From: Acidaminococcus fermentans DSM 20731
GTDB lineage: Bacteria; Bacillota; Negativicutes; Acidaminococcales; Acidaminococcaceae
DNA: 64,000 nt
Assembly: GCF_000025305.1 (NCBI RefSeq)
Contig: NC_013740.1
Span: 1,302,001 to 1,366,000, forward strand
Reading direction: 5' to 3'
The translations under genes were made by a program, and so were the position numbers. Under the pieces are notes generated by a model. That model did not search any database. It saw only the letters and a program-made list of their open reading frames with translations, and was not told the origin of the DNA. Shown one piece after another: positions 42,780-52,059 of this stretch; the stretch's first letter is position 1; every line of letters starts with the position of its first letter.

Positions 42780-45431
42780 TTACATCCCAGCCAGCAACTG
42801 GCTGAATTCATCCAGGGTATAACTTCCTTCTCCTGGAATTTTTTTCTTGTCGAACACCATATAATACCGGTAATTGCTCCCTGCCAGGTTCTTCCACTTG
42901 GTTCCCAGCTGAAGCTTTTTCTGGCTGTCCGAACCGTCCAGGTAATCCCCTTTGGTTTCAATCATTAAAATCCGGCCGTTTTTCAGTTGTACGATGAAAT
43001 CCGGGTAATGATTGATGAAGCCATTGATTTTAAACCCTTTCCGATCGATGTTCCGATGCCACCACAGGACCTTGTCGCTGCAGGCAATCACTTCGTTCAG
43101 CATCCGCATTTCAAAAGAATCCAGATCCTTCTTTTCTCCTTCATACAAAGAATTGGGAATGGAGGTAATGGCTTCTGCCGGTGTAATGATGGCCGGAAAT
43201 GCATAGGACGGTTCACAGGTAATCTTTCCCGTTTCCAGCCAGTCCTGGAATTTCTGGATCCGATACTTCTCTGTCAGGCTTTTCAATTTATCCTGAATCC
43301 GGCTGGCATAAGATGGAATGGACGTTTCCATCTGCTGCAGTTCATCTTCTGTCATGTTGTGGATGACACGCTTCACATATTCCTGCACTTCACTGGTTAC
43401 ATACTGGTTGTTTTTGTTGATGTGCCGGGTCAGGATTTCCGCACATTGAGCAATCCGTTTCTCCGGTGCGATTTTTTCCAGATACTTGCGGATTTCTTCC
43501 TGGTCCGAAAGGTTGACCTTCCTGTATTTGGGCACAGCTTCTCCCTTCTGCTGCACATCCACCTGGTACATTTCTCCGGTGGAAAGCTGGAAACTAATCT
43601 GGGCATCCTGCCCTGTAAGAGAAAAACCGTCTGTCAGGCTCTCCGGCGTCAACAGTGTTTTTTCTCCCCCGAAAAGGTCCGCTTCCGTCCGCAGGAAAAA
43701 TTGGGGAATCCGAAGCTGTTCCGCCTGGGTCCGGAACTCTGCCATCATTGGATACTGGTTCTGCATGGCGCCCAATTCGCCTCCCATCAGTCCCTGTTCT
43801 TCCTGTTTTTTCGTTTCATCCTGATACTGCTGCCCCTGTTTTACAGCCTGGGCCATCATTTCCCCTACCGTCGAATCCAAAGGCGGTCTGCCTGATTCGT
43901 TCGGCTGATTCAGCTCTCGCTGTACGGCCTCCGAATCAATATCATCATATTCTTCAGCCGGAGTTTCTTCTTTTCCTTCTTCTTGAGATTCCGGCTGATG
44001 AGGAAAAAGACTGCTTTCCTGGGCCTGGGACTGGGCTGGCTGGAATTCAGGCATTTCTCCATCTCCCACCCGGTAATCTTTCCGGCTGAAGCCAGCGTCA
44101 TTCAGCCCTTTGACAATGCTTTCCAGGACTCCTTGGAATTCTTTGGAACTGGTAAGCACAAAGGACATGTTCAAGAGGCTTTTTCCATACTGACGGGCAT
44201 AAGGCTGGCGCAGGATCCGTCCTACAATCTGTTCCACATCCACCTTGGACGTTTTATTGGCCAGAGAAGCCAGGATATAGGCAAAGGGACAGTCCCACCC
44301 TTCCTTCAGGGCATTGACCGTAATGATGTAGCGGATGGGGCACTGGGGACTCATCAGATCCACCTGCTTCAAATCATCCACATCGGCGGTCTTGATGGCA
44401 ATTTGTTCTTCCGGAATCCCGATTTTCAGCAGCAGTTCCCGAACCTTCGTAAACGTGGTGCTGTCTTCTTTCACTTTGGGCTGGGCCTGGAACAGGACAA
44501 TGGGCCGGATGTACGGTCCTCCATTTTGTTCCAGGGCTTTGGCCTGAGATTCCAGGATGCCTCGAAACTGGATGGCGTCCTGGAGCACACTTTGCCGATT
44601 GTTCCGGTTGAACACCATCACCGGCAGCTTCACCATATTTTCTTTTTTTAGTTCCCGGGCATCCACATAGGACACCACATTGCTGCTGGCCCGAGGAGTA
44701 GCCGTCAGTTCCAGAATAAAAGAGGGATTCAGGTTCTCCAGCATTTCTTCACTGAGTTTGGAGGTGGCATTGTGGCTTTCATCCACAACGGCCACCGGAT
44801 GCAGGGACCGGAGAACCTGGATCAGGGCCGTATCCGGGGTATTTTCCAGCAGATAATCCGTTCCCCTGGCGTATCCCAGAAAGGGCATCAGATTCCCATT
44901 TTCCTGGAACACCTTCCGGTCTTCCTTTTTCTTGGAATTGATCCGCAGAGAGGCGTAGCTCATGACACACACGGACAGCTGGTCCCGGACCGTATCAGGA
45001 GAAAAATTCTGGGCATTCAGCAGGGCATCTTTGGTGTACACCATCACTTTTCCGCCAAAATCCCGGTCCAGCTGATGACGGTAGGGATGATGGGGATTGG
45101 AAAGATTCTGTATGGTCTGGCTCAGAATGGAATCCGAAGGCACCAGCCACACCACGGCCCGGTTCTGAGCCAGGGGCATGTGATCAAAAATCGGTTTCAC
45201 CGCACAACAGGCCATAAAGGTTTTACCCCCGCCAGTAGGGACTTTCATGCACACATGGGGCACCCCAGGAATCCGCTCCCGGTACGGAGGCACGCCTCCT
45301 TTGCCCACCTTGATGTCCTTGGACTGCCAGAACGCCTTCCAGCCTTTTTTGATATCGTTCTGGGCATTCACCGCGTCCATAAACAGGGACAGATCCTGGA
45401 GCACGTTTTTCTGATAATTTTTCAGTTCCAT
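42780..45431 (-). CDS. res: Type III restriction enzyme Res subunit (helicase-nuclease)
   Basis: An 883-residue SF2 helicase with an endonuclease domain. Walker A PTGGGKTFMACCAV is near residue 66, the DEAD-type box is VVDESHNAT near residue 217, ILELTATPR follows, and a motif VI region is at QIVGRILRQPYA. The C-terminal nuclease is visible as PDFIVQL with LMIETKGDYLDG. With Mod it cuts unmethylated DNA after ATP-driven movement. Mod is encoded 12 bases upstream. The full-length frame suggests a working enzyme. Confidence 0.93.
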   Translation of the reverse strand: MELKNYQKNVLQDLSLFMDAVNAQNDIKKGWKAFWQSKDIKVGKGGVPPYRERIPGVPHVCMKVPTGGGKTFMACCAVKPIFDHMPLAQNRAVVWLVPSDSILSQTIQNLSNPHHPYRHQLDRDFGGKVMVYTKDALLNAQNFSPDTVRDQLSVCVMSYASLRINSKKKEDRKVFQENGNLMPFLGYARGTDYLLENTPDTALIQVLRSLHPVAVVDESHNATSKLSEEMLENLNPSFILELTATPRASSNVVSYVDARELKKENMVKLPVMVFNRNNRQSVLQDAIQFRGILESQAKALEQNGGPYIRPIVLFQAQPKVKEDSTTFTKVRELLLKIGIPEEQIAIKTADVDDLKQVDLMSPQCPIRYIITVNALKEGWDCPFAYILASLANKTSKVDVEQIVGRILRQPYARQYGKSLLNMSFVLTSSKEFQGVLESIVKGLNDAGFSRKDYRVGDGEMPEFQPAQSQAQESSLFPHQPESQEEGKEETPAEEYDDIDSEAVQRELNQPNESGRPPLDSTVGEMMAQAVKQGQQYQDETKKQEEQGLMGGELGAMQNQYPMMAEFRTQAEQLRIPQFFLRTEADLFGGEKTLLTPESLTDGFSLTGQDAQISFQLSTGEMYQVDVQQKGEAVPKYRKVNLSDQEEIRKYLEKIAPEKRIAQCAEILTRHINKNNQYVTSEVQEYVKRVIHNMTEDELQQMETSIPSYASRIQDKLKSLTEKYRIQKFQDWLETGKITCEPSYAFPAIITPAEAITSIPNSLYEGEKKDLDSFEMRMLNEVIACSDKVLWWHRNIDRKGFKINGFINHYPDFIVQLKNGRILMIETKGDYLDGSDSQKKLQLGTKWKNLAGSNYRYYMVFDKKKIPGEGSYTLDEFSQLLAGM

Positions 45432-45443
45432 GATGCTGCCTCC

Positions 45444-47366
45444 TTAAAACCGGGCAATGTCCCGGGGAATTTTTTTGAACGTAATATGATATTTCTGCAG
45501 TTCCTCTTCACTGAGGGTACACCGGTCCGCATACATCACATAGCTTTCGCCTTTTGTCCTGACTTTAGCCAGAAAATCCCAGTTCAGGGTAGTGGCTGCG
45601 TTCCGGTCGTAATGGAAATAATACACGGTATCCATCCATTTTCCCAGGTAGGCCGGTTCTTCTGGCCGGATTGGTTCCGCCGGCTGCCGGGTTTCTGTGA
45701 AATAGACGTATTTGCGGATTTCCTCCAAACCGATTTCCTCGTTCAGGAAATCCCCGTGGAAAATCGGCTGTCCCAGTTCATAATAACTGAAGCTGCCGCC
45801 AATACCCTTAATTTCATCAGTTGCTTTTATAGTTCCAATAACTTGTAAATGATTATCAATTATTTTTATACTAACATTATCATACGCATTTTTTGCTTCT
45901 TTTTTAATTTTTAAAGCTTGTTCTATTAATTCTTTACCCTTTTCTAATACTTTTAAAGTTATTTTTTCTTCCATCAGAACATTTTCTTTATTTTTTTCTT
46001 TTGAATAACCAGAAATAACCTTTTTTACTCTCTGAGCTGTGATATCATTTGCATAATCCATCATTTCTACAAGGATAAATTTTCGGTTTCCATTATCTTC
46101 TAGATTAGTTTCAAGTACAGAATGTGCCGTAGTTCCAGAACCAGCAAAAGCGTCCAATACAATCGAATCTTTATTTGTAGCAATTTGAATAATTCGTTTC
46201 AGTAAGCGAGTTGGTTTTGGCGTATCGAAGACTTTTTTACCAAAAATCGTCTTAATCTCTTTTTTTGCTTCATCTGTATGTCCTGTTTCATCATAAGACC
46301 AAAAATTTGTGACTACCCTGCCTTCAGTATCTTTTAAATAAGTTTTTCTAGCTATTCCACCCAATCCATTGCTGGTGAAAAAGAATAGTGGCCAGCATCC
46401 TTTGTCGTATACCATTTTCGCGTGTTTTTTTGCCTCGCTTAAGGGTTCCGCTAAAATGATTCCTTTTACATCTTTTTTAATCTTATTAACAGAGATACCG
46501 CATACTTCAGCTCGTCTATCTTCATCATGTAAGTTTTCATACTTATAAGCTGCCCAATTCTGCATAACGTTCAGCATGTCATCCTGCTGCCATGGCCAAC
46601 AAGCTCCGTTATACGGATAAATCATGTCCCCCGTAAATGGATGTTGGATAGCATAAACCATTCCTTGGTGGGTAGCAGCACTAGGAGCAAATGCATCACT
46701 CGTACGCCAAAGTTCTTTATCCCCATCTTTATTTTGATATTTAGAATTCATTTTTTTCGTTCTAGGTAATTTATGAGGTGTCCATCCTATTTTTTTAGAA
46801 TAAACAAGAATATATTCCGTTTCTCCACTAATACCTTTGGAATCATTACGAGGAGAATAAGTATGCTGCCATGAAATAGATGCTACAAAACATTGAATAC
46901 CAAAAATTTCATCACAAATTTCTTTTAAATGAGCTTGTTCATTATCATCTATACTGATAAATATAGCTCCATCTTCAGACAATAAACGTTGTAACAGCCG
47001 CAGTCGGGGATACATCATGCACAGCCATTTATCGTGACGGCTCAGGTCTTCCCCTTCTTTTCCCACCACTTCCCCCAGCCATTTCTGGATCCGGGGATCA
47101 TTCACATTGTCGTTGTACACCCAGCCTTCGTTCCCGGTGTTGTAGGGAGGATCGATATAGATACATTTTATCTTCCCTTCATACTGGGGCAGCAGGCTTT
47201 TCAGGGCTGCCAGATTGTCTCCGTGGATGATTTTATTTTCACTGCCATTATCTTCCGGGTGCTGACCTTTTTCGTCATAGCTGTATACCCGCTGCAGCAC
47301 CTGGTACGGCACTTCCAGATGGTGATTGACCACCTTGTTCTTGCCAATCCATTCCAGCGTCGGCAT
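45444..47366 (-). CDS. mod: Type III restriction-modification methyltransferase Mod subunit
   Basis: A 640-residue beta-class adenine methylase. The catalytic motif CIYIDPPYNTGNEGW is near residue 90 and the SAM motif IVLDAFAGSGTTAHSV near residue 409. The ends of the gene are GC-rich like the neighbours, but about 45800-46985 is strongly AT-rich, covering the target-recognition region and the second motif. This looks like an exchanged specificity segment. The ATG at 47366 follows GAGGAGG. A promoter lies at 47427-47455. Confidence 0.94.
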   Translation of the reverse strand: MPTLEWIGKNKVVNHHLEVPYQVLQRVYSYDEKGQHPEDNGSENKIIHGDNLAALKSLLPQYEGKIKCIYIDPPYNTGNEGWVYNDNVNDPRIQKWLGEVVGKEGEDLSRHDKWLCMMYPRLRLLQRLLSEDGAIFISIDDNEQAHLKEICDEIFGIQCFVASISWQHTYSPRNDSKGISGETEYILVYSKKIGWTPHKLPRTKKMNSKYQNKDGDKELWRTSDAFAPSAATHQGMVYAIQHPFTGDMIYPYNGACWPWQQDDMLNVMQNWAAYKYENLHDEDRRAEVCGISVNKIKKDVKGIILAEPLSEAKKHAKMVYDKGCWPLFFFTSNGLGGIARKTYLKDTEGRVVTNFWSYDETGHTDEAKKEIKTIFGKKVFDTPKPTRLLKRIIQIATNKDSIVLDAFAGSGTTAHSVLETNLEDNGNRKFILVEMMDYANDITAQRVKKVISGYSKEKNKENVLMEEKITLKVLEKGKELIEQALKIKKEAKNAYDNVSIKIIDNHLQVIGTIKATDEIKGIGGSFSYYELGQPIFHGDFLNEEIGLEEIRKYVYFTETRQPAEPIRPEEPAYLGKWMDTVYYFHYDRNAATTLNWDFLAKVRTKGESYVMYADRCTLSEEELQKYHITFKKIPRDIARF

Positions 47367-47790: not shown

Positions 47791-47884
47791 TCTCCTTTTG
47801 CCGGAACGGGATGACCGGGCGACACGGCTGCGCCGGTCTTGGTCCTCCCATACGGGGCCGGTATCGACAGGCCGTGCATCAGGC

Positions 47885-48048
47885 GGGCCGCCCGGCGTGC
47901 GGCCCCTACGGTATCGCAATGGGTCGTTGGAATTTCGTACATTTCGCGGGGCAACCGGCGTGCGGCCCCTACGGTATCGCAATGGGTCGTTGGAATTTCG
48001 TACATTTCGCGGGGCAACCGGCGTGCGGCCCCTACGGCATCGCAATGG
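47885..48048. repeat. 63-bp tandem repeat within a GC-rich interspersed element
   Basis: Two identical 63-base units (47894-47956, 47957-48019) and a 29-base partial third (from 48020) start with GGCGTGCGGCCCCTACGG. The leading 27 bases at 47885-47911 also occur at 27571-27597. No coding function is supported. Confidence 0.9.
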
Positions 48049-48084
48049 ACCATTCGCCCCTTCCGTCCCGCTCTACACGCTTCC

Positions 48085-48648
48085 CTATTTCCCCTCTGTG
48101 CCATTGTTCTCCATTTTCTTTTTCATTTTCTGAAGAGCCTTTCGATAGCGTCCATACAGACTGGAGACAGGGCATCCAAATTCTCTTCCGATGGATTTCC
48201 AGGGGGTTCCTCTGACGGTGGCAAGACATACAAGACGGTGTTCGGCAGGGGTAAGACATTGGAGCGCCTTCTGAAGTTCCCCCCTTCGTATCCGCATGGT
48301 AAAATCTTCCGTGTAACTCGTCTCCTGATTCTGCGCATAGATTTTCTCCTTTACTTTGTTCCAGCGTATCTGCTTCCGGATGTAATGGGAAAGCAGGTAG
48401 TGCAGATGGGTATTTACGAAACCGGGGAACCGTCTTGGGTCTTCTCCGGGGTATTTCCGGATGGCTTCCAGGAGCCCCAGCACCAGCTGGCTGGCCAAAT
48501 CCATCCGCAGGGAGGGATTTTTTTCCTGTCCGGCCAGTTTCTGCACCAAAGGCCGGAAAGCGATGACGATGGCCAGCTGGGCTTCCTGATCCCCGCTCCG
48601 GGCCCTGGGCAGCAGGGCCGTCAGATCCGTGCTTTTGTTTTTCTTCAT
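48085..48648 (-). CDS. Sigma-70-family-like transcription factor
   Basis: A 187-residue protein. Region-2-like sequence runs from about residue 18 (GDQEAQLAIVIAFRPLVQKL) through DLASQLVLGLLEAIRKYP. A region-4-like helix-turn-helix lies near the C-terminus (LTPAEHRLVCLATVRGTPWK and GCPVSSLYGRYRKALQKM). It looks like a small alternative sigma factor or a sigma-like DNA-binding protein. It follows the DnaI/DnaC-like loader gene by 15 bases, and that pair is divergent from the DUF1659-DUF2922-YvrJ genes. In Bacillus, yvrJ neighbours the sigma factor genes sigO/rsoA, which supports a functional link. Confidence 0.75.
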   Translation of the reverse strand: MKKNKSTDLTALLPRARSGDQEAQLAIVIAFRPLVQKLAGQEKNPSLRMDLASQLVLGLLEAIRKYPGEDPRRFPGFVNTHLHYLLSHYIRKQIRWNKVKEKIYAQNQETSYTEDFTMRIRRGELQKALQCLTPAEHRLVCLATVRGTPWKSIGREFGCPVSSLYGRYRKALQKMKKKMENNGTEGK

Positions 48649-48663
48649 ATAGGCCTCCTTCCG

Positions 48664-49518
48664 TCAGGCAAACAGGCTGGGATCCAGCTCCCAGATTTCC
48701 GGCTTGTTCCGTGTTTCTCCGGCCTGGGGGAACAGGGTTTCCGGATTCCACCGGTGGTCCCGGCCTTTGGCTTCCAGTTCCACGGTCATGCCGCCGATGC
48801 GGCTGATGAGCCGGTCGATGGTCCGCCTTTCTTCCCACCCGGTTTTGTTCCGGGCCCGGTGGAACCTTTCCTGGAGGGCCTGCAGGGAAAAATTGCTGGT
48901 GAACACGGTCTGCCGCCGGGCAGTATACCGGGCATCGATGAGCAGGAACAGCTGTTCCAGTCCCCATTCGGTGACTTTTTCGGTGCCCAGATCGTCCAGG
49001 ATCAGGCAGGGGACTTCCTGGTACTGGTCCATCCGTTGGTTCCAGTCTCCCTGGATATTCCGCCGCAGCTGATTCAGCAATCCGGCCACGGTGGTGAACC
49101 GGACGGCTTTGCCCTGGGCAAGGAGCTCCTTGGCAAAAAGCACTGCCAGCATGGTCTTGCCCACCCCGGAAGGTCCGTGGAGGAAGAAGCCCCTGCCGGG
49201 CCGTTTTTCCCTGGCCAGCTTCCGGACGGTCTCCAGGGCCTTGCGGTTCCCCGGTTCCACCTGGTATTCCGAAAAGGTGCAGGAAAGGAACATTTCCGGC
49301 AGTCCGGCCTGTTCCAGCAACTGCCGGTTCCGTTCTTCCCGGCGCTGGATTTCCCCATAGGGACAGGGACTGAGGGCTTCCCGGACGGTTCCGGCATAGT
49401 AGACCACCAGAGGCATATAGCCGGGAGTGGGCTGGGTGCACTTTTTCCCGCTGCAGTTCCGGCACCGTTCCTGGGCCTTCAGGGCGTACTGGATATCCCA
49501 CTCTGCATTGCGGTACAA
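48664..49518 (-). CDS. DnaI/DnaC-like ATP-binding helicase loader
   Basis: About 284 residues. A Cys-rich N-terminus (CRNCSGKKC, later CPYG) resembles the zinc region of DnaI. The AAA+ core has Walker A FLHGPSGVGKTMLA near residue 119, Walker B CLILDDLGTEK near residue 180, sensor-1 TVFTSNFS and an Arg-rich RTIDRLISRI. It may load replicative helicase or act in a mobile-element context; no phage genes are near. The start is uncertain: the frame runs to 49623 but then overlaps the plus-strand DUF1659 gene, so I prefer the TTG at 49518, although no RBS precedes it. Confidence 0.75.
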   Translation of the reverse strand: MYRNAEWDIQYALKAQERCRNCSGKKCTQPTPGYMPLVVYYAGTVREALSPCPYGEIQRREERNRQLLEQAGLPEMFLSCTFSEYQVEPGNRKALETVRKLAREKRPGRGFFLHGPSGVGKTMLAVLFAKELLAQGKAVRFTTVAGLLNQLRRNIQGDWNQRMDQYQEVPCLILDDLGTEKVTEWGLEQLFLLIDARYTARRQTVFTSNFSLQALQERFHRARNKTGWEERRTIDRLISRIGGMTVELEAKGRDHRWNPETLFPQAGETRNKPEIWELDPSLFA

Positions 49519-49531
49519 GGAGGAAGGAAAT

Positions 49532-49759
49532 ATGGCAATCCAGAAGCAACTGACTGCAGTGACTCTGCAGCTGGAAGTAAGCAACGGCGTGGACAAAAAT
49601 GACCAGCCCAAGTTCAAGAACATCAGCTATGAAAAGCTGGCAAGGGAAGCCACTCCCGAAAAACTGGCGGAAGTGGGCAAGGAATTTGGCAACCTGATGC
49701 AGGAAGCTCCCAAAGGCATGTACGTGGTGGAACGCCATGCCCTGAATGAAGTGGCGTAA
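49532..49759 (+). CDS. DUF1659 family small protein
   Basis: 75 residues starting MAIQKQLTAVTLQLEVSNGV, matching the DUF1659 pattern of short Firmicute proteins. The ATG follows AAGGAGGAAGG by five bases. It is the first of three small plus-strand genes and its start is only 13 bases from the divergent loader gene start. Function unknown for the family; no signal peptide or span is visible. Confidence 0.82.
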   Translation: MAIQKQLTAVTLQLEVSNGVDKNDQPKFKNISYEKLAREATPEKLAEVGKEFGNLMQEAPKGMYVVERHALNEVA

Positions 49760-49774
49760 AGGAGGTAAGGCACA

Positions 49775-50023
49775 ATGGCAGATTCCAGAAAACTGGACCT
49801 GATTTTCAAAGACAGTGAAAAGGCAACGAAAAACATCCGTATCCCCAACCCCCGCACGGACGTGGACCGGGAAACGGTACTGCCGGTAATGAACAAAGTG
49901 GTGGAAAGCAAAGTCTTCCTCACCAAGAACAATCTCCCGGTGGAAACCATCCAGGGGGCCAAAGTGACCGACGTCAAGGACCTGCTCTCCGACGGGGCCA
50001 GTGACGAAAGCACCGAGGCCTGA
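49775..50023 (+). CDS. DUF2922 family small protein
   Basis: 82 residues (ADSRKLDLIFKDSEKATKNI, then VDRETVLPVMNKVVESKVFL). The strand-helix pattern with a conserved PxxD turn is that of DUF2922, commonly encoded beside DUF1659 and YvrJ. It starts 15 bases after the DUF1659 stop with AAAGGAGG upstream. Function unknown. Confidence 0.82.
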   Translation: MADSRKLDLIFKDSEKATKNIRIPNPRTDVDRETVLPVMNKVVESKVFLTKNNLPVETIQGAKVTDVKDLLSDGASDESTEA

Positions 50024-50025
50024 CC

Positions 50026-50175
50026 ATGGATGACCTGACCCTGCTGGCCGGCCAGGCTGCCCAGTACGGGTTCCCCATGGTCATTTCCTGGTACCTCCTG
50101 GTACGCATGGAAGAGAAACTGGAGAACCTGACCCAGAGCATCGAACGGCTGCGCATGGCAGTGAAATGTGAATAG
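50026..50175 (+). CDS. YvrJ family membrane microprotein
   Basis: 49 residues, starting two bases after the DUF2922 stop. A single hydrophobic segment YGFPMVISWYLLVRM is followed by an amphipathic helix EEKLENLTQSIERLRM, the YvrJ layout. In Bacillus subtilis yvrJ lies in the SigO neighbourhood. It completes the three-gene DUF1659-DUF2922-YvrJ unit. The overlapping translation signals suggest coupling. Confidence 0.85.
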   Translation: MDDLTLLAGQAAQYGFPMVISWYLLVRMEEKLENLTQSIERLRMAVKCE

Positions 50176-50179
50176 AGGG

Positions 50180-50210
50180 AAAGGCCGCCGGAAAACCTCC
50201 GGCGGCCTTT
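50180..50210 (+). terminator. Terminator after the yvrJ-like gene
   Basis: AAAGGCCGCCGG and CCGGCGGCCTTT form a 12-pair stem around a short loop, four bases after the stop codon. A 24-base GC-rich repeat shared with 27611-27634 follows at 50224-50247. Confidence 0.85.
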
Positions 50211-50271
50211 GTCAGCAAGGAATCTGTCGGGACCGCCGTCCCGCTCTTCCCTCTTCCCTCTTTCCTTCCCA

Positions 50272-50610
50272 TCACGGCAGCCCTGGGAAACTGGTCACGT
50301 ATTTGATCCGGATATCCGGGAAACTGGTGACGAACTGGATGGTGAAATCTTCTCCGTATTCCACGAACTGCCACTCTCCGATTCCGGACGGAAAATGGTC
50401 CACCACTTTCACCTTCAGATCCGGGAAACTGGTGACCACCTGGACCTTGATATCCGGGTTGTATTCCACCACCCGTACTTTGCCTGCCAGACGGATGCCG
50501 TTGAAGGTACCGTTGGAACTCACTGCAGAGGAAGCCAGGGCGGCCGTGGTCCACAGCAGGCAGAACAGGGCGGCAAGGATGCCTGCCAGCCAATATTTTG
50601 TCCGTTTCAT
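50272..50610 (-). CDS. Small secreted protein with SFPD repeats
   Basis: 112 residues, starting at the ATG at 50610 six bases after GAGGAGGG. A signal peptide (WLAGILAALFCLLWTTAALA) is followed by about six short repeats. Examples are VVEYNPDIKV, VVTSFPDLKV, VVDHFPSGIG, FVEYGEDFTI, FVTSFPDIRI and YVTSFPGLP. Each is about ten residues, with a hydrophobic-aromatic strand pattern ending in FPD. It probably folds as a small beta-repeat domain. Function unknown; no lipobox is visible. It is monocistronic with a hairpin on its upstream side. Confidence 0.8.
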   Translation of the reverse strand: MKRTKYWLAGILAALFCLLWTTAALASSAVSSNGTFNGIRLAGKVRVVEYNPDIKVQVVTSFPDLKVKVVDHFPSGIGEWQFVEYGEDFTIQFVTSFPDIRIKYVTSFPGLP

Positions 50611-50654
50611 CGCAATCCCTCCTCTGGCTGAATATTCTGTATCTATTATAGCAT

Positions 50655-50692
50655 AAAAAGGGCGCTGTGAAAAAATCATTCACAGCGCCTTA
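50655..50692. terminator. Hairpin upstream of the SFPD protein gene
   Basis: GGCGCTGTGA and TCACAGCGCC pair around a nine-base loop. It can end a plus- or minus-strand transcript. A second GATGTGAAAA/TTTTCACATC hairpin lies at about 50769-50795. Confidence 0.65.
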
Positions 50693-50847: not shown

Positions 50848-52059
50848 CTATTTCTCCGGCCCCTCCTGGTGCACGTGGGCTATGGGGATCCATTGCTTTT
50901 GGGGGAAGAACACGGACCAGACGGCCACCAGGGACAGGAAGATGCAGAAAAAGCCTCCGGTGAGGATGCCGGGCAGCATCCGTTTCACCGGCAGGTCCCC
51001 GGCCTTGATGGCGCAGGTGCCCATCACCAGGCTCAGCCCATAGAGCATGGTCCACCACAGCACGTCTTTCAGGGCAAACAGGGGTCTGCCTTCCACCGCA
51101 TGGTACCCCACCCACAGTACATTGGACAGGAAATAGAAGCCGAACACCACGCACATGAGCATGGGGACGAAATTGTCGATGAGCCGGGCATCGGGCCGGG
51201 CCCGGAAATGGGCCAGCCACTCCTTCCGGTACTCCCGGGCAATCTGATAGTTGCCGGTCATCCACCGGCGGAGCTGGCTCACCATCCCCTTCCAGGTCAC
51301 CGGCTGCTCGTCATAGAACCGGGCATCGTCCTGGTAAACGGAAAATACGCCCTTGAAGTTCTGCTGCATGGAAAATTCCATGTCCTCCACAATGGTCCGG
51401 GTATGCCAGCCTTCCGGCTCCAGCAGGGAAGCATCGAAGCCGAACCCGGTGCCGGAGATGATCCCCGGCAGATCCACATTGGCCCGGGGCTTGCTGAACA
51501 GGTCCACACTGAGCCAGTACATGCTGTACCATTGGGAAATCAGGTTGTCGAAGGGATTCAGGGGCAGCCGGTTTCCCATCACCAGCCGGGCTCCCCGGCG
51601 GAAGCTGCCGTCCAGGGCCGCCAGGAACCCCCGGTCCGCCATATTGTCCGCATCGAAGATCACAATATGGCTGAAGGTCCCGCCATACCGCTGGCGGATG
51701 AGAGGGATGCCCCAACTGAGCACCGCCCCTTTTCCGGTACGGGGGCCTTCCTTCCGTTCCAGCACCGTCACATGGGGATACCGCCGGCCCACCTCCGGGG
51801 TTCCGTCCTCACAGTGGTCCGCCAGCAGGAACACCCGGTACAGGTCCCTGGGATAGTCCTGGTCTTCCAGGCTCTGGAACAGTTTCCCCACCACATTGGC
51901 TTCATTGTGGGCGCAGACCAGGATGGCGAACCGGCTGGGTTCTCCCGTCACCGGTTTCTCTTTCCGCCGGGTCAGAAGGCCCATGAATACCGTGCTGCAG
52001 GTCCAGAGAAAGGTCACCACCAGCAGCAGCTGGACGATGAAGGTCAGTCGATACATCAT
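50848..52059 (-). CDS. Glycosyltransferase family 2 membrane protein
   Basis: A 403-residue inverting glycosyltransferase. An N-terminal span (LTFIVQLLLVVTFLWTCSTV) is followed by the GT2 domain: ILVCAHNEANVVGKL near residue 46, metal-binding IFDADNMAD near 132, IVEDMEFSM near 225, and the QLRRW motif near 268. Two or more C-terminal spans follow. The QxxRW motif is typical of processive or chitin/cellulose-like synthases. Substrate unknown. It is the last gene of the folate cluster run. Confidence 0.85.
   Translation of the reverse strand: MMYRLTFIVQLLLVVTFLWTCSTVFMGLLTRRKEKPVTGEPSRFAILVCAHNEANVVGKLFQSLEDQDYPRDLYRVFLLADHCEDGTPEVGRRYPHVTVLERKEGPRTGKGAVLSWGIPLIRQRYGGTFSHIVIFDADNMADRGFLAALDGSFRRGARLVMGNRLPLNPFDNLISQWYSMYWLSVDLFSKPRANVDLPGIISGTGFGFDASLLEPEGWHTRTIVEDMEFSMQQNFKGVFSVYQDDARFYDEQPVTWKGMVSQLRRWMTGNYQIAREYRKEWLAHFRARPDARLIDNFVPMLMCVVFGFYFLSNVLWVGYHAVEGRPLFALKDVLWWTMLYGLSLVMGTCAIKAGDLPVKRMLPGILTGGFFCIFLSLVAVWSVFFPQKQWIPIAHVHQEGPEK

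Follow-up and report, generated by a model that had tools for sequence, protein, structure and literature searches.

The DNA analysed here (the window) is a 64,000-nucleotide stretch covering positions 1,302,001–1,366,000 of the single 2,329,769-base contig of Acidaminococcus fermentans DSM 20731, and the locus in question is a group of five small genes within it. A gene for a sigma-like factor and a gene for a DnaC/DnaI-like helicase-loader ATPase lie on the minus strand, and three microprotein genes of the families DUF1659, DUF2922 and YvrJ (the trio) lie on the plus strand. The five open reading frames (ORFs), which an earlier note had described as a compact unit, exist and bear the correct family names according to the ORF listing and the Pfam, NCBIfam and PHROG profiles, and the locus is most likely a deletion-scarred copy of a fuller module. 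The features are as follows.

48085–48648, minus strand: sigma-like gene, 187 amino acids (aa), intact frame, with an HTH_16 N-terminal part and a C-terminal part like sigma-70 region 4
48664–49518, minus strand: DnaC/DnaI-like helicase-loader gene that has lost its 5' end; its relatives have about 40 N-terminal residues more, and there is no clear start or ribosome-binding site (RBS)
49495–49517, no strand: inferred deletion junction between the loader half and the trio half, placed by the limits of blastn homology
49517–50183, plus strand: conserved cassette block, 80–95% identical in five other Acidaminococcus copies and beginning at the Shine-Dalgarno sequence of the DUF1659 gene
49532–49759, plus strand: DUF1659 microprotein, 75 aa (Pfam PF07872, 54.2 bits against a cut-off of 24.1)
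49775–50023, plus strand: DUF2922 microprotein, 82 aa (Pfam PF11148, 60.9 bits against 25.5)
50026–50175, plus strand: YvrJ microprotein, 49 aa, holin-like (Pfam PF12841, 60.6 bits against 29.5)
50180–50211, plus strand: G+C-rich inverted repeat downstream of YvrJ that closes with a few T residues and by eye resembles a terminator

The product of the loader gene matches Pfam IstB_IS21 (74.2 bits against a cut-off of 24.1), the PHROG family phrog_50, DnaC-like helicase loader (175.6 bits), and the helicase loader 2w58 in the PDB (E 5.8e-22). The N-terminal regions of the loaders at three related loci, L075, L076 and L077 (compared loci and genomes carry L and G numbers), are not shared by the frame in the window, and no Shine-Dalgarno sequence was visible by eye before its possible starts, ATG at 49623 and TTG at 49518. 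In blastn comparisons, the sigma/loader half matches L075 as far as 49494, and the trio half matches L075, L076, L077, L080 and L081 from an abrupt start at 49517; partial trio matches only were obtained for L082, from 49550, and L078, from 50025. The window copy is most likely a deletion derivative of a fuller module, and the five-gene layout would be compact because a deletion joined the loader half to the trio half. The existence of the ORFs and the recurrence of the trio–sigma adjacency uphold part of the compact-unit claim, and the break in homology takes away its continuity. Comparison of neighbourhoods likewise confined chance adjacency, a possibility raised in the earlier note, to the junction of the ATPase and DUF1659 genes, and the association of sigma gene and trio is not affected by it.

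Ratios of non-synonymous to synonymous substitution (dN/dS) were usable for four of the five genes: 0.20 and 0.25 between copies of the sigma-like gene, 0.33 for the loader, 0.22 and 0.29 for DUF1659, and 0.10 (against L077) and 0.49 (against L075) for YvrJ. Comparisons of DUF1659 with L080 and L075 and of DUF2922 with L075 and L076 were excluded as off-frame or misplaced, and the ratio of 2.17 for YvrJ against L080, at a dS of 0.01, comes from a pair too alike to inform. Protein-level selection has left its marks on the sigma, loader, DUF1659 and YvrJ frames, and the range of 0.10–0.49 in the usable rows would reflect the shared history of the copies, not selection after the deletion.

The DnaI/DnaC-like ATPase, which the earlier note had paired with the sigma-like gene, was rejected as a regular partner. 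The loader is truncated here, is present in three of the nine genomes of the genus at E ≤ 1e-20 (not matched in six), and in fuller copies is paired with a phage-type DnaD-like gene. Elsewhere, a DnaC-like gene beside the sigma gene was confirmed in one further Acidaminococcaceae genome only (L128); counts from a home-made LOADER profile were discarded, as the profile had drifted to P-loop proteins (ABC-F- and RecD2-like). The pairing with the ATPase is a damaged remnant of local extent.

The association of the sigma gene with the trio extends far beyond the genus. Two samples were used, namely 120 genomes of the class Negativicutes, in which 98 of the 125 listed YvrJ places entered the locus counts (the weakest-scoring were left out), and a wider genome scan selected by the YvrJ pattern, of which the best 80 of 434 relatives form the 80-locus set. 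YvrJ was found in 73 of the 120 Negativicutes genomes. At 83 of the 98 loci, YvrJ has DUF1659 and DUF2922 within 1.7 kb on its own strand, with the order kept in 80, and in the wider scan both accompany YvrJ at 64 of 80 loci, with the order kept in all 64; DUF1659-DUF2922-YvrJ is a conserved operon. By profile, a sigma homolog lies within 5.5 kb of YvrJ at 45 of the 98 and 43 of the 80 loci; single-sequence matches place one at that distance at 33 of the 125 YvrJ places, below the profile's count. Outside Acidaminococcaceae, the sigma gene mostly stands upstream of the trio on the same strand. A sigma gene beside the trio is recurrent in Negativicutes, Clostridia and Tissierellia. Within the genus, five of nine genomes contain YvrJ; one congener has four loci, two more have a pair each, and the present genome has a single one.

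The sigma-like protein exceeds the cut-offs of Pfam HTH_16 (28.4 bits against 22) and of the NCBIfam sigma70-ECF superfamily model (58.9 against 42.9), and remains under the curated Pfam cut-offs for region 2 (18.1 against 24), region 4 (20.0 against 24.1) and region 4_2 (22.1 against 25.7). Loader and sigma genes are neighbours in two congeneric genomes, G078 (two copies) and G094, where the sigma homologs adjoining the loader show 66%, 61% and 58% identity and the last of these contains an in-frame TGA. Separately, conserved leaders were observed before the sigma gene at many Sporomusaceae and Tissierellia loci (for example L180:5700-5760, L037, L053, L110 and L221), in which a 6-base palindrome (AGCGCT, CCTAGG or CCATGG) is followed by a near-palindromic hairpin whose 3' arm could pair alternatively with the RBS; arm and RBS appear to covary. 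Palindromes of at least 12 stand near 36 of 75 sigma starts, compared with a mean of 2.1 and a maximum of 9 in mononucleotide shuffles, and the complementary run averages 5.94 in 33 sigma leaders with their own sequence and 4.08 when swapped, L099 and L139 among the 33 looking unrelated. Rfam gave no family over the sigma leader in L180, L190, L221 and L198, where the only hits passing gathering scores were S-adenosylmethionine (SAM) riboswitches and tRNAs.

Fuller copies of the module in Acidaminococcaceae indicate what may have been lost. An amidase homolog lies within 3 kb of YvrJ at 16 of the 98 Negativicutes loci, always on the YvrJ strand, and a sigma gene was found within 5.5 kb at 12 of these 16 (nine divergent, three on the same strand) and not found at four. 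Amidase_2 was confirmed in L077, the only locus with an Xre-type helix-turn-helix (HTH) gene by Pfam; DnaD-like/replisome-organiser genes were confirmed in L076, L077, L078, L128 and L132, DnaC-like loaders in L077 and L128, and homologs of the window's loader in L075, L076 and L077. Upstream of the amidase, the element TTATANAGTGTARGG occurs in six loci of the genus (L075–L080). It has no counterpart in the window at up to two mismatches and was not seen in L258, an amidase locus of a congener, or in the other family loci scanned (L083, L084, L112, L122, L128 and L132), so that it would be at best a feature at genus level. The locus in the window has neither amidase nor Xre gene, nor a DnaD-like gene or the TTATANAGTGTARGG element, and the amidase of a congener has no match in this genome at E ≤ 0.001. 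The phage contig of the best amidase relative contains no YvrJ, DUF1659 or DUF2922 match within the 10 kb examined.

A holin-like role for YvrJ is suggested by the PHROG family phrog_4898, annotated as holin, which is matched by 32 of 35 YvrJ proteins at E ≤ 0.05 (best 1.3e-7) and by the protein of the window at E 0.002; the latter shows a hydrophobic segment followed by a charged tail by eye. In the viral contigs, YvrJ was present in 28 of 28, DUF1659 and DUF2922 in none, and one weak sigma match was obtained (L160). A peptidoglycan hydrolase gene stands within a few genes of YvrJ in about 11 of the 20 viral neighbourhoods viewed by eye, and nine hydrolase-like genes picked by eye all match Amidase_2, Amidase_3, M15, M23 or GH108, the M23 match (27.7 bits) being below its cut-off of 28.7. 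YvrJ may accordingly be described as a small, putatively holin-like membrane protein. Membership in the BhlA family was ruled out, since Pfam PF10960 (BhlA/UviB holins) is not among the families matched by the 35 proteins at E ≤ 5; the BhlA model also found nothing in the 120 Negativicutes genomes at E ≤ 0.001 and did match the Bacillus subtilis control. As a side observation by eye, a large ORF without the appearance of an endolysin follows a YvrJ-like gene and a gene for an apparently hydrophobic protein of about 105 aa in the viral contigs L147, L153 and L161.

For the DUF1659 and DUF2922 microproteins, AlphaFold2 (AF2) predicted β-β-α-β folds, with a predicted local distance difference test (pLDDT) score of 88.5 for DUF1659 and 77.4 for DUF2922. 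Despite this common order, kinship between the two families was rejected at an hhalign probability of 3.4. Foldseek with both models gave no match at E ≤ 0.001, and PDB sequence searches with the microproteins were empty or weak. The DUF1659 model weakly resembles phi29 p6 (8pw4 in the PDB, E 0.23; dsDNA-binding/p6 entries of BFVD, E 0.04–0.1), a lead only; the p6-type match ranks under an arginine decarboxylase in the PDB. The weak resemblance of the DUF2922 model to phage p56 is likewise a lead only. The DUF2922 protein of L221 had no match among 50,697 phage records.

In other lineages, the genes next to the trio point to DNA uptake. The same-strand order sigma-DUF1659-DUF2922-YvrJ-recD2-comFC is found at 34 of the 80 loci (families tested on examples), a ComK-like gene stands between YvrJ and recD2 at 14 of these, and metK precedes at 11 of the 14. 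Within 6.5 kb, the 80-locus set contains 34 ComK-like, 45 recD2 and 45 comFC genes. The kinship of the ComK-like proteins is remote; 12 of 41 members match Pfam ComK at E ≤ 0.05 (best 3.9e-7), and the member at L221 reaches 23.2 bits against a cut-off of 22.3. In the class sample, a ComK-like gene was found in 61 of 120 genomes. Of these genes, 38 have a sigma and/or YvrJ match within 8 kb and 23 have neither nearby; the first number is an undercount, since at L272, one of the 23, a sigma gene is picked up by the profile. ComK-like, sigma, recD2 and comFC genes occur together at L270, L271 and L272, where the trio was not detected in the stretch; L270 also contains a secretin gene, and elsewhere in the same genome, G013, a separate contig carries the trio (L043). 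Separately, at L267:7348-9208 in G092, a genome without a YvrJ match, the ComK-like gene adjoins the gene of a 310-aa protein with HTH_16 and sigma region 4.

A LexA-type palindrome stands at 27 of 44 ComK-like genes, whereas 100 permuted palindromes, chosen without those that keep the GAAC core, gave a median of 0 and never more than 3 (with such permutations, the maximum for ComK-like genes is 25). The control genes recD2, comFC and metK have it at 2 of 49, 0 of 48 and 0 of 28; these box counts rest on ORF starts that are possibly placed too far upstream. The box is found at 8 of 131 DUF1659 genes (permuted maximum 5), seven of the eight without a sigma gene found upstream, at 3 of 85 sigma genes (permuted maximum 4) and at 0 of 16 amidase genes. 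Boxes lie upstream of the ComK-like genes of several lineages, at L221, L213, L203, L198, L267, L271 and L272, some of them by eye between -35- and -10-like sequences. No LexA-type box stands upstream of the trio in the window, and LexA control gained no support in this genome, where no LexA site was recognised and the sole box-like match between 45,000 and 53,000 of the window lies inside the loader gene, at 48945.

The nearest described arrangement is the pIP404-type cassette of Clostridium perfringens, for which a passage of PMC9527704 lists the sigma factor UviA, the BhlA holin UviB, an amidase and the bacteriocin Bcn5, and whose promoters are ultraviolet (UV)-inducible according to the title of a reference cited there. 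As far as that passage goes, the likeness lies in the combination of sigma factor, holin-like protein and amidase in the modules of the relatives; the UV-inducible promoters there may be compared with the LexA-type boxes at ComK-like genes here. Unlike UviB, YvrJ has no BhlA Pfam match; DUF1659 and DUF2922 occupy a possible cargo-gene position, Xre and DnaD/DnaC genes are added, and the window copy has no amidase. In Bacillus subtilis, SigO-RsoA initiates transcription of yvrJ, as stated in a passage of PMC8103513. SigO-RsoA is a sigma factor split in two proteins, whereas the HTH_16/region 2 and region 4 similarities are found here on one protein of 187 aa, and the SigO-RsoA passage does not mention DUF1659 or DUF2922. 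ComK-controlled competence of Bacillus offers another likeness, with ComK-like, recD2 and comFC genes beside sigma and trio in other Bacillota, although the similarity to ComK is remote. The loader and DnaD-like genes match families of phage DnaD/DnaC replication modules, but here they are joined with a sigma gene and an operon of microproteins, and the loader of the window is truncated. A literature search by the three family names found no mention of DUF2922, one of DUF1659 and more of YvrJ, and the titles and abstract openings retrieved for ComK with the LexA regulon and Clostridium, or with Negativicutes, do not contain the sigma–trio association. The proposal of an undescribed system holds in that no description of this association was found under those names, and fails as a reading of an intact system at this locus.

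A possible mechanism was proposed for the fuller copies, to which we give an even chance of being right: the locus would be a deletion-scarred copy of a family module encoding a sigma-directed holin-type system, with a context of DNA damage and competence in other lineages. These copies encode on one strand a sigma factor of their own, together with an Xre-type regulator and, in varying completeness, phage-type DnaD/DnaC replication genes, and on the divergent strand an endolysin-like amidase with DUF1659, DUF2922 and YvrJ. The sigma factor may turn on the divergent amidase–trio operon; YvrJ could then open the membrane, so that the amidase would reach the wall and regulated lysis or release would follow. 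DUF1659 and DUF2922 may be soluble partners made at the same time, serving as cargo, as DNA-binding proteins or as holin modulators. In other lineages, DNA damage is the probable trigger and competence the probable context, because recD2 and comFC adjoin sigma and trio and a ComK-like gene with a LexA-type box is often near. The module of this strain probably no longer works in its original form.

Several observations weigh against this proposal. An amidase accompanies just a sixth of the class-sample loci, that of L258 without the upstream element of its congeners, and the BhlA/UviB family is absent from the YvrJ matches. A hydrolase stands near YvrJ in only about 11 of the 20 viral neighbourhoods, and in L147, L149, L153 and L161 the neighbours of the viral gene look portal-, terminase- or protease-like to the eye. 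No ComK-like match was obtained in this genome or in any of the 20 Acidaminococcaceae genomes, and the lexA locus of this genome contains no GAACN4GTTC box, so that a DNA-damage link is not supported for this family.

It is quite possible, if not favoured, that the Acidaminococcaceae module is what remains of a phage- or plasmid-like mobile element, with its DnaD/DnaC replication genes, regulator and lysis pair, and that the window copy is a non-functional fossil. The several YvrJ loci at different sites in some congeners, the patchy occurrence of YvrJ and loader in the genus, the phage-type DnaC and DnaD families, and two ORFs judged by eye, one transposase-like and situated between the amidase and the trio of L077, the other primase-like and close to the L080 copy, are consistent with such an origin. 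However, no integrase or virion gene was recognised in the flanks by eye, without a systematic search, the dN/dS between copies is low, the chromosomal neighbourhood of sigma and trio recurs in other lineages, and the sigma protein matches only one of the 50,697 phage records at E ≤ 1e-3.

A more doubtful explanation is that sigma gene and trio form a regulon for competence or DNA handling and not for lysis, in which a ComK-like protein and the sigma factor would drive the trio, RecD2 and ComFC, and the microproteins would bind or shepherd DNA at the membrane. The gene order with recD2 and comFC, frequently with an inserted ComK-like gene and a preceding metK, argues for it, as do the 38 ComK-like genes near sigma and/or YvrJ (a low count), the three loci with ComK-like, sigma, recD2 and comFC but no trio in the stretch, the secretin gene among them, and the weak resemblance of DUF1659 to p6. 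The match of Pfam ComK to a minority of the ComK-like members, the lack of any fold match at the threshold used, the lytic appearance of YvrJ and amidase, the ComK-like genes near neither partner and the lack of any ComK-like match in Acidaminococcaceae argue against it. That the five genes form one intact system in which the ATPase works with the sigma factor, as the earlier note had it, is very improbable, since the loader–sigma adjacency in G078 and G094 and the low dN/dS are countered by a junction that already contradicts it, by a truncated loader without a visible RBS that is unmatched in most genomes of the genus, and by the missing amidase, Xre and DnaD-like genes.

A combined and rather speculative scheme joins the proposed sigma-directed holin-type system to competence. 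In Negativicutes, Clostridia and Tissierellia, a ComK-like protein released from LexA, together with the sigma factor, might drive recD2, comFC and the trio; YvrJ, with the amidase in Acidaminococcaceae, might open cells to release DNA or protein; the Sporomusaceae leader might gate the sigma factor through a middle segment that pairs with either the upstream arm or the RBS; and the window would hold a broken copy. PMC2912397 provides a precedent, in which DNA damage induces competence and a lysozyme-like DNA-donation protein. The neighbouring genes give support to both halves of the earlier suggestion of envelope-linked signalling or DNA handling, but not to an intact system at this locus.

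The locus borders a restriction island, as had been noted, with genes for ResIII and DNA-methylase domains (Pfam) at 42780–47366 in the left flank; methyltransferase-like ORFs were seen by eye beside the cassette copy of the congener G114 as well (L078:10805-12452). In the right flank, a glycosyltransferase gene (Pfam) lies at 50848–52059, and a minus-strand ORF of 135 aa at 50272–50679 shows a hydrophobic N-terminal stretch and repeated TSFPD-like motifs, without a Pfam match at E ≤ 0.1. One further feature lies on the 3' side of the sigma gene.

47873–48089, no strand: intergenic repeat copies, with related stretches near the trio copy L081 of a congener (blastn)

These repeats are near-identical, contain GCGTGCGGCCCCTACGGTATCGCAATGG and may promote rearrangement.

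For this genome, the lesson is that a seemingly compact novel unit was most likely assembled by deletion. Many Bacillota genomes contain DUF1659, DUF2922 and YvrJ, but the search by name found little on them; the sigma–trio unit, the amidase of the family, the phage homologs often found near endolysins and, elsewhere, the LexA-marked ComK-like genes with recD2 and comFC together allow a concrete, testable functional proposal. If it is true, these genes would be candidates for the control of DNA uptake or of programmed release in anaerobes.

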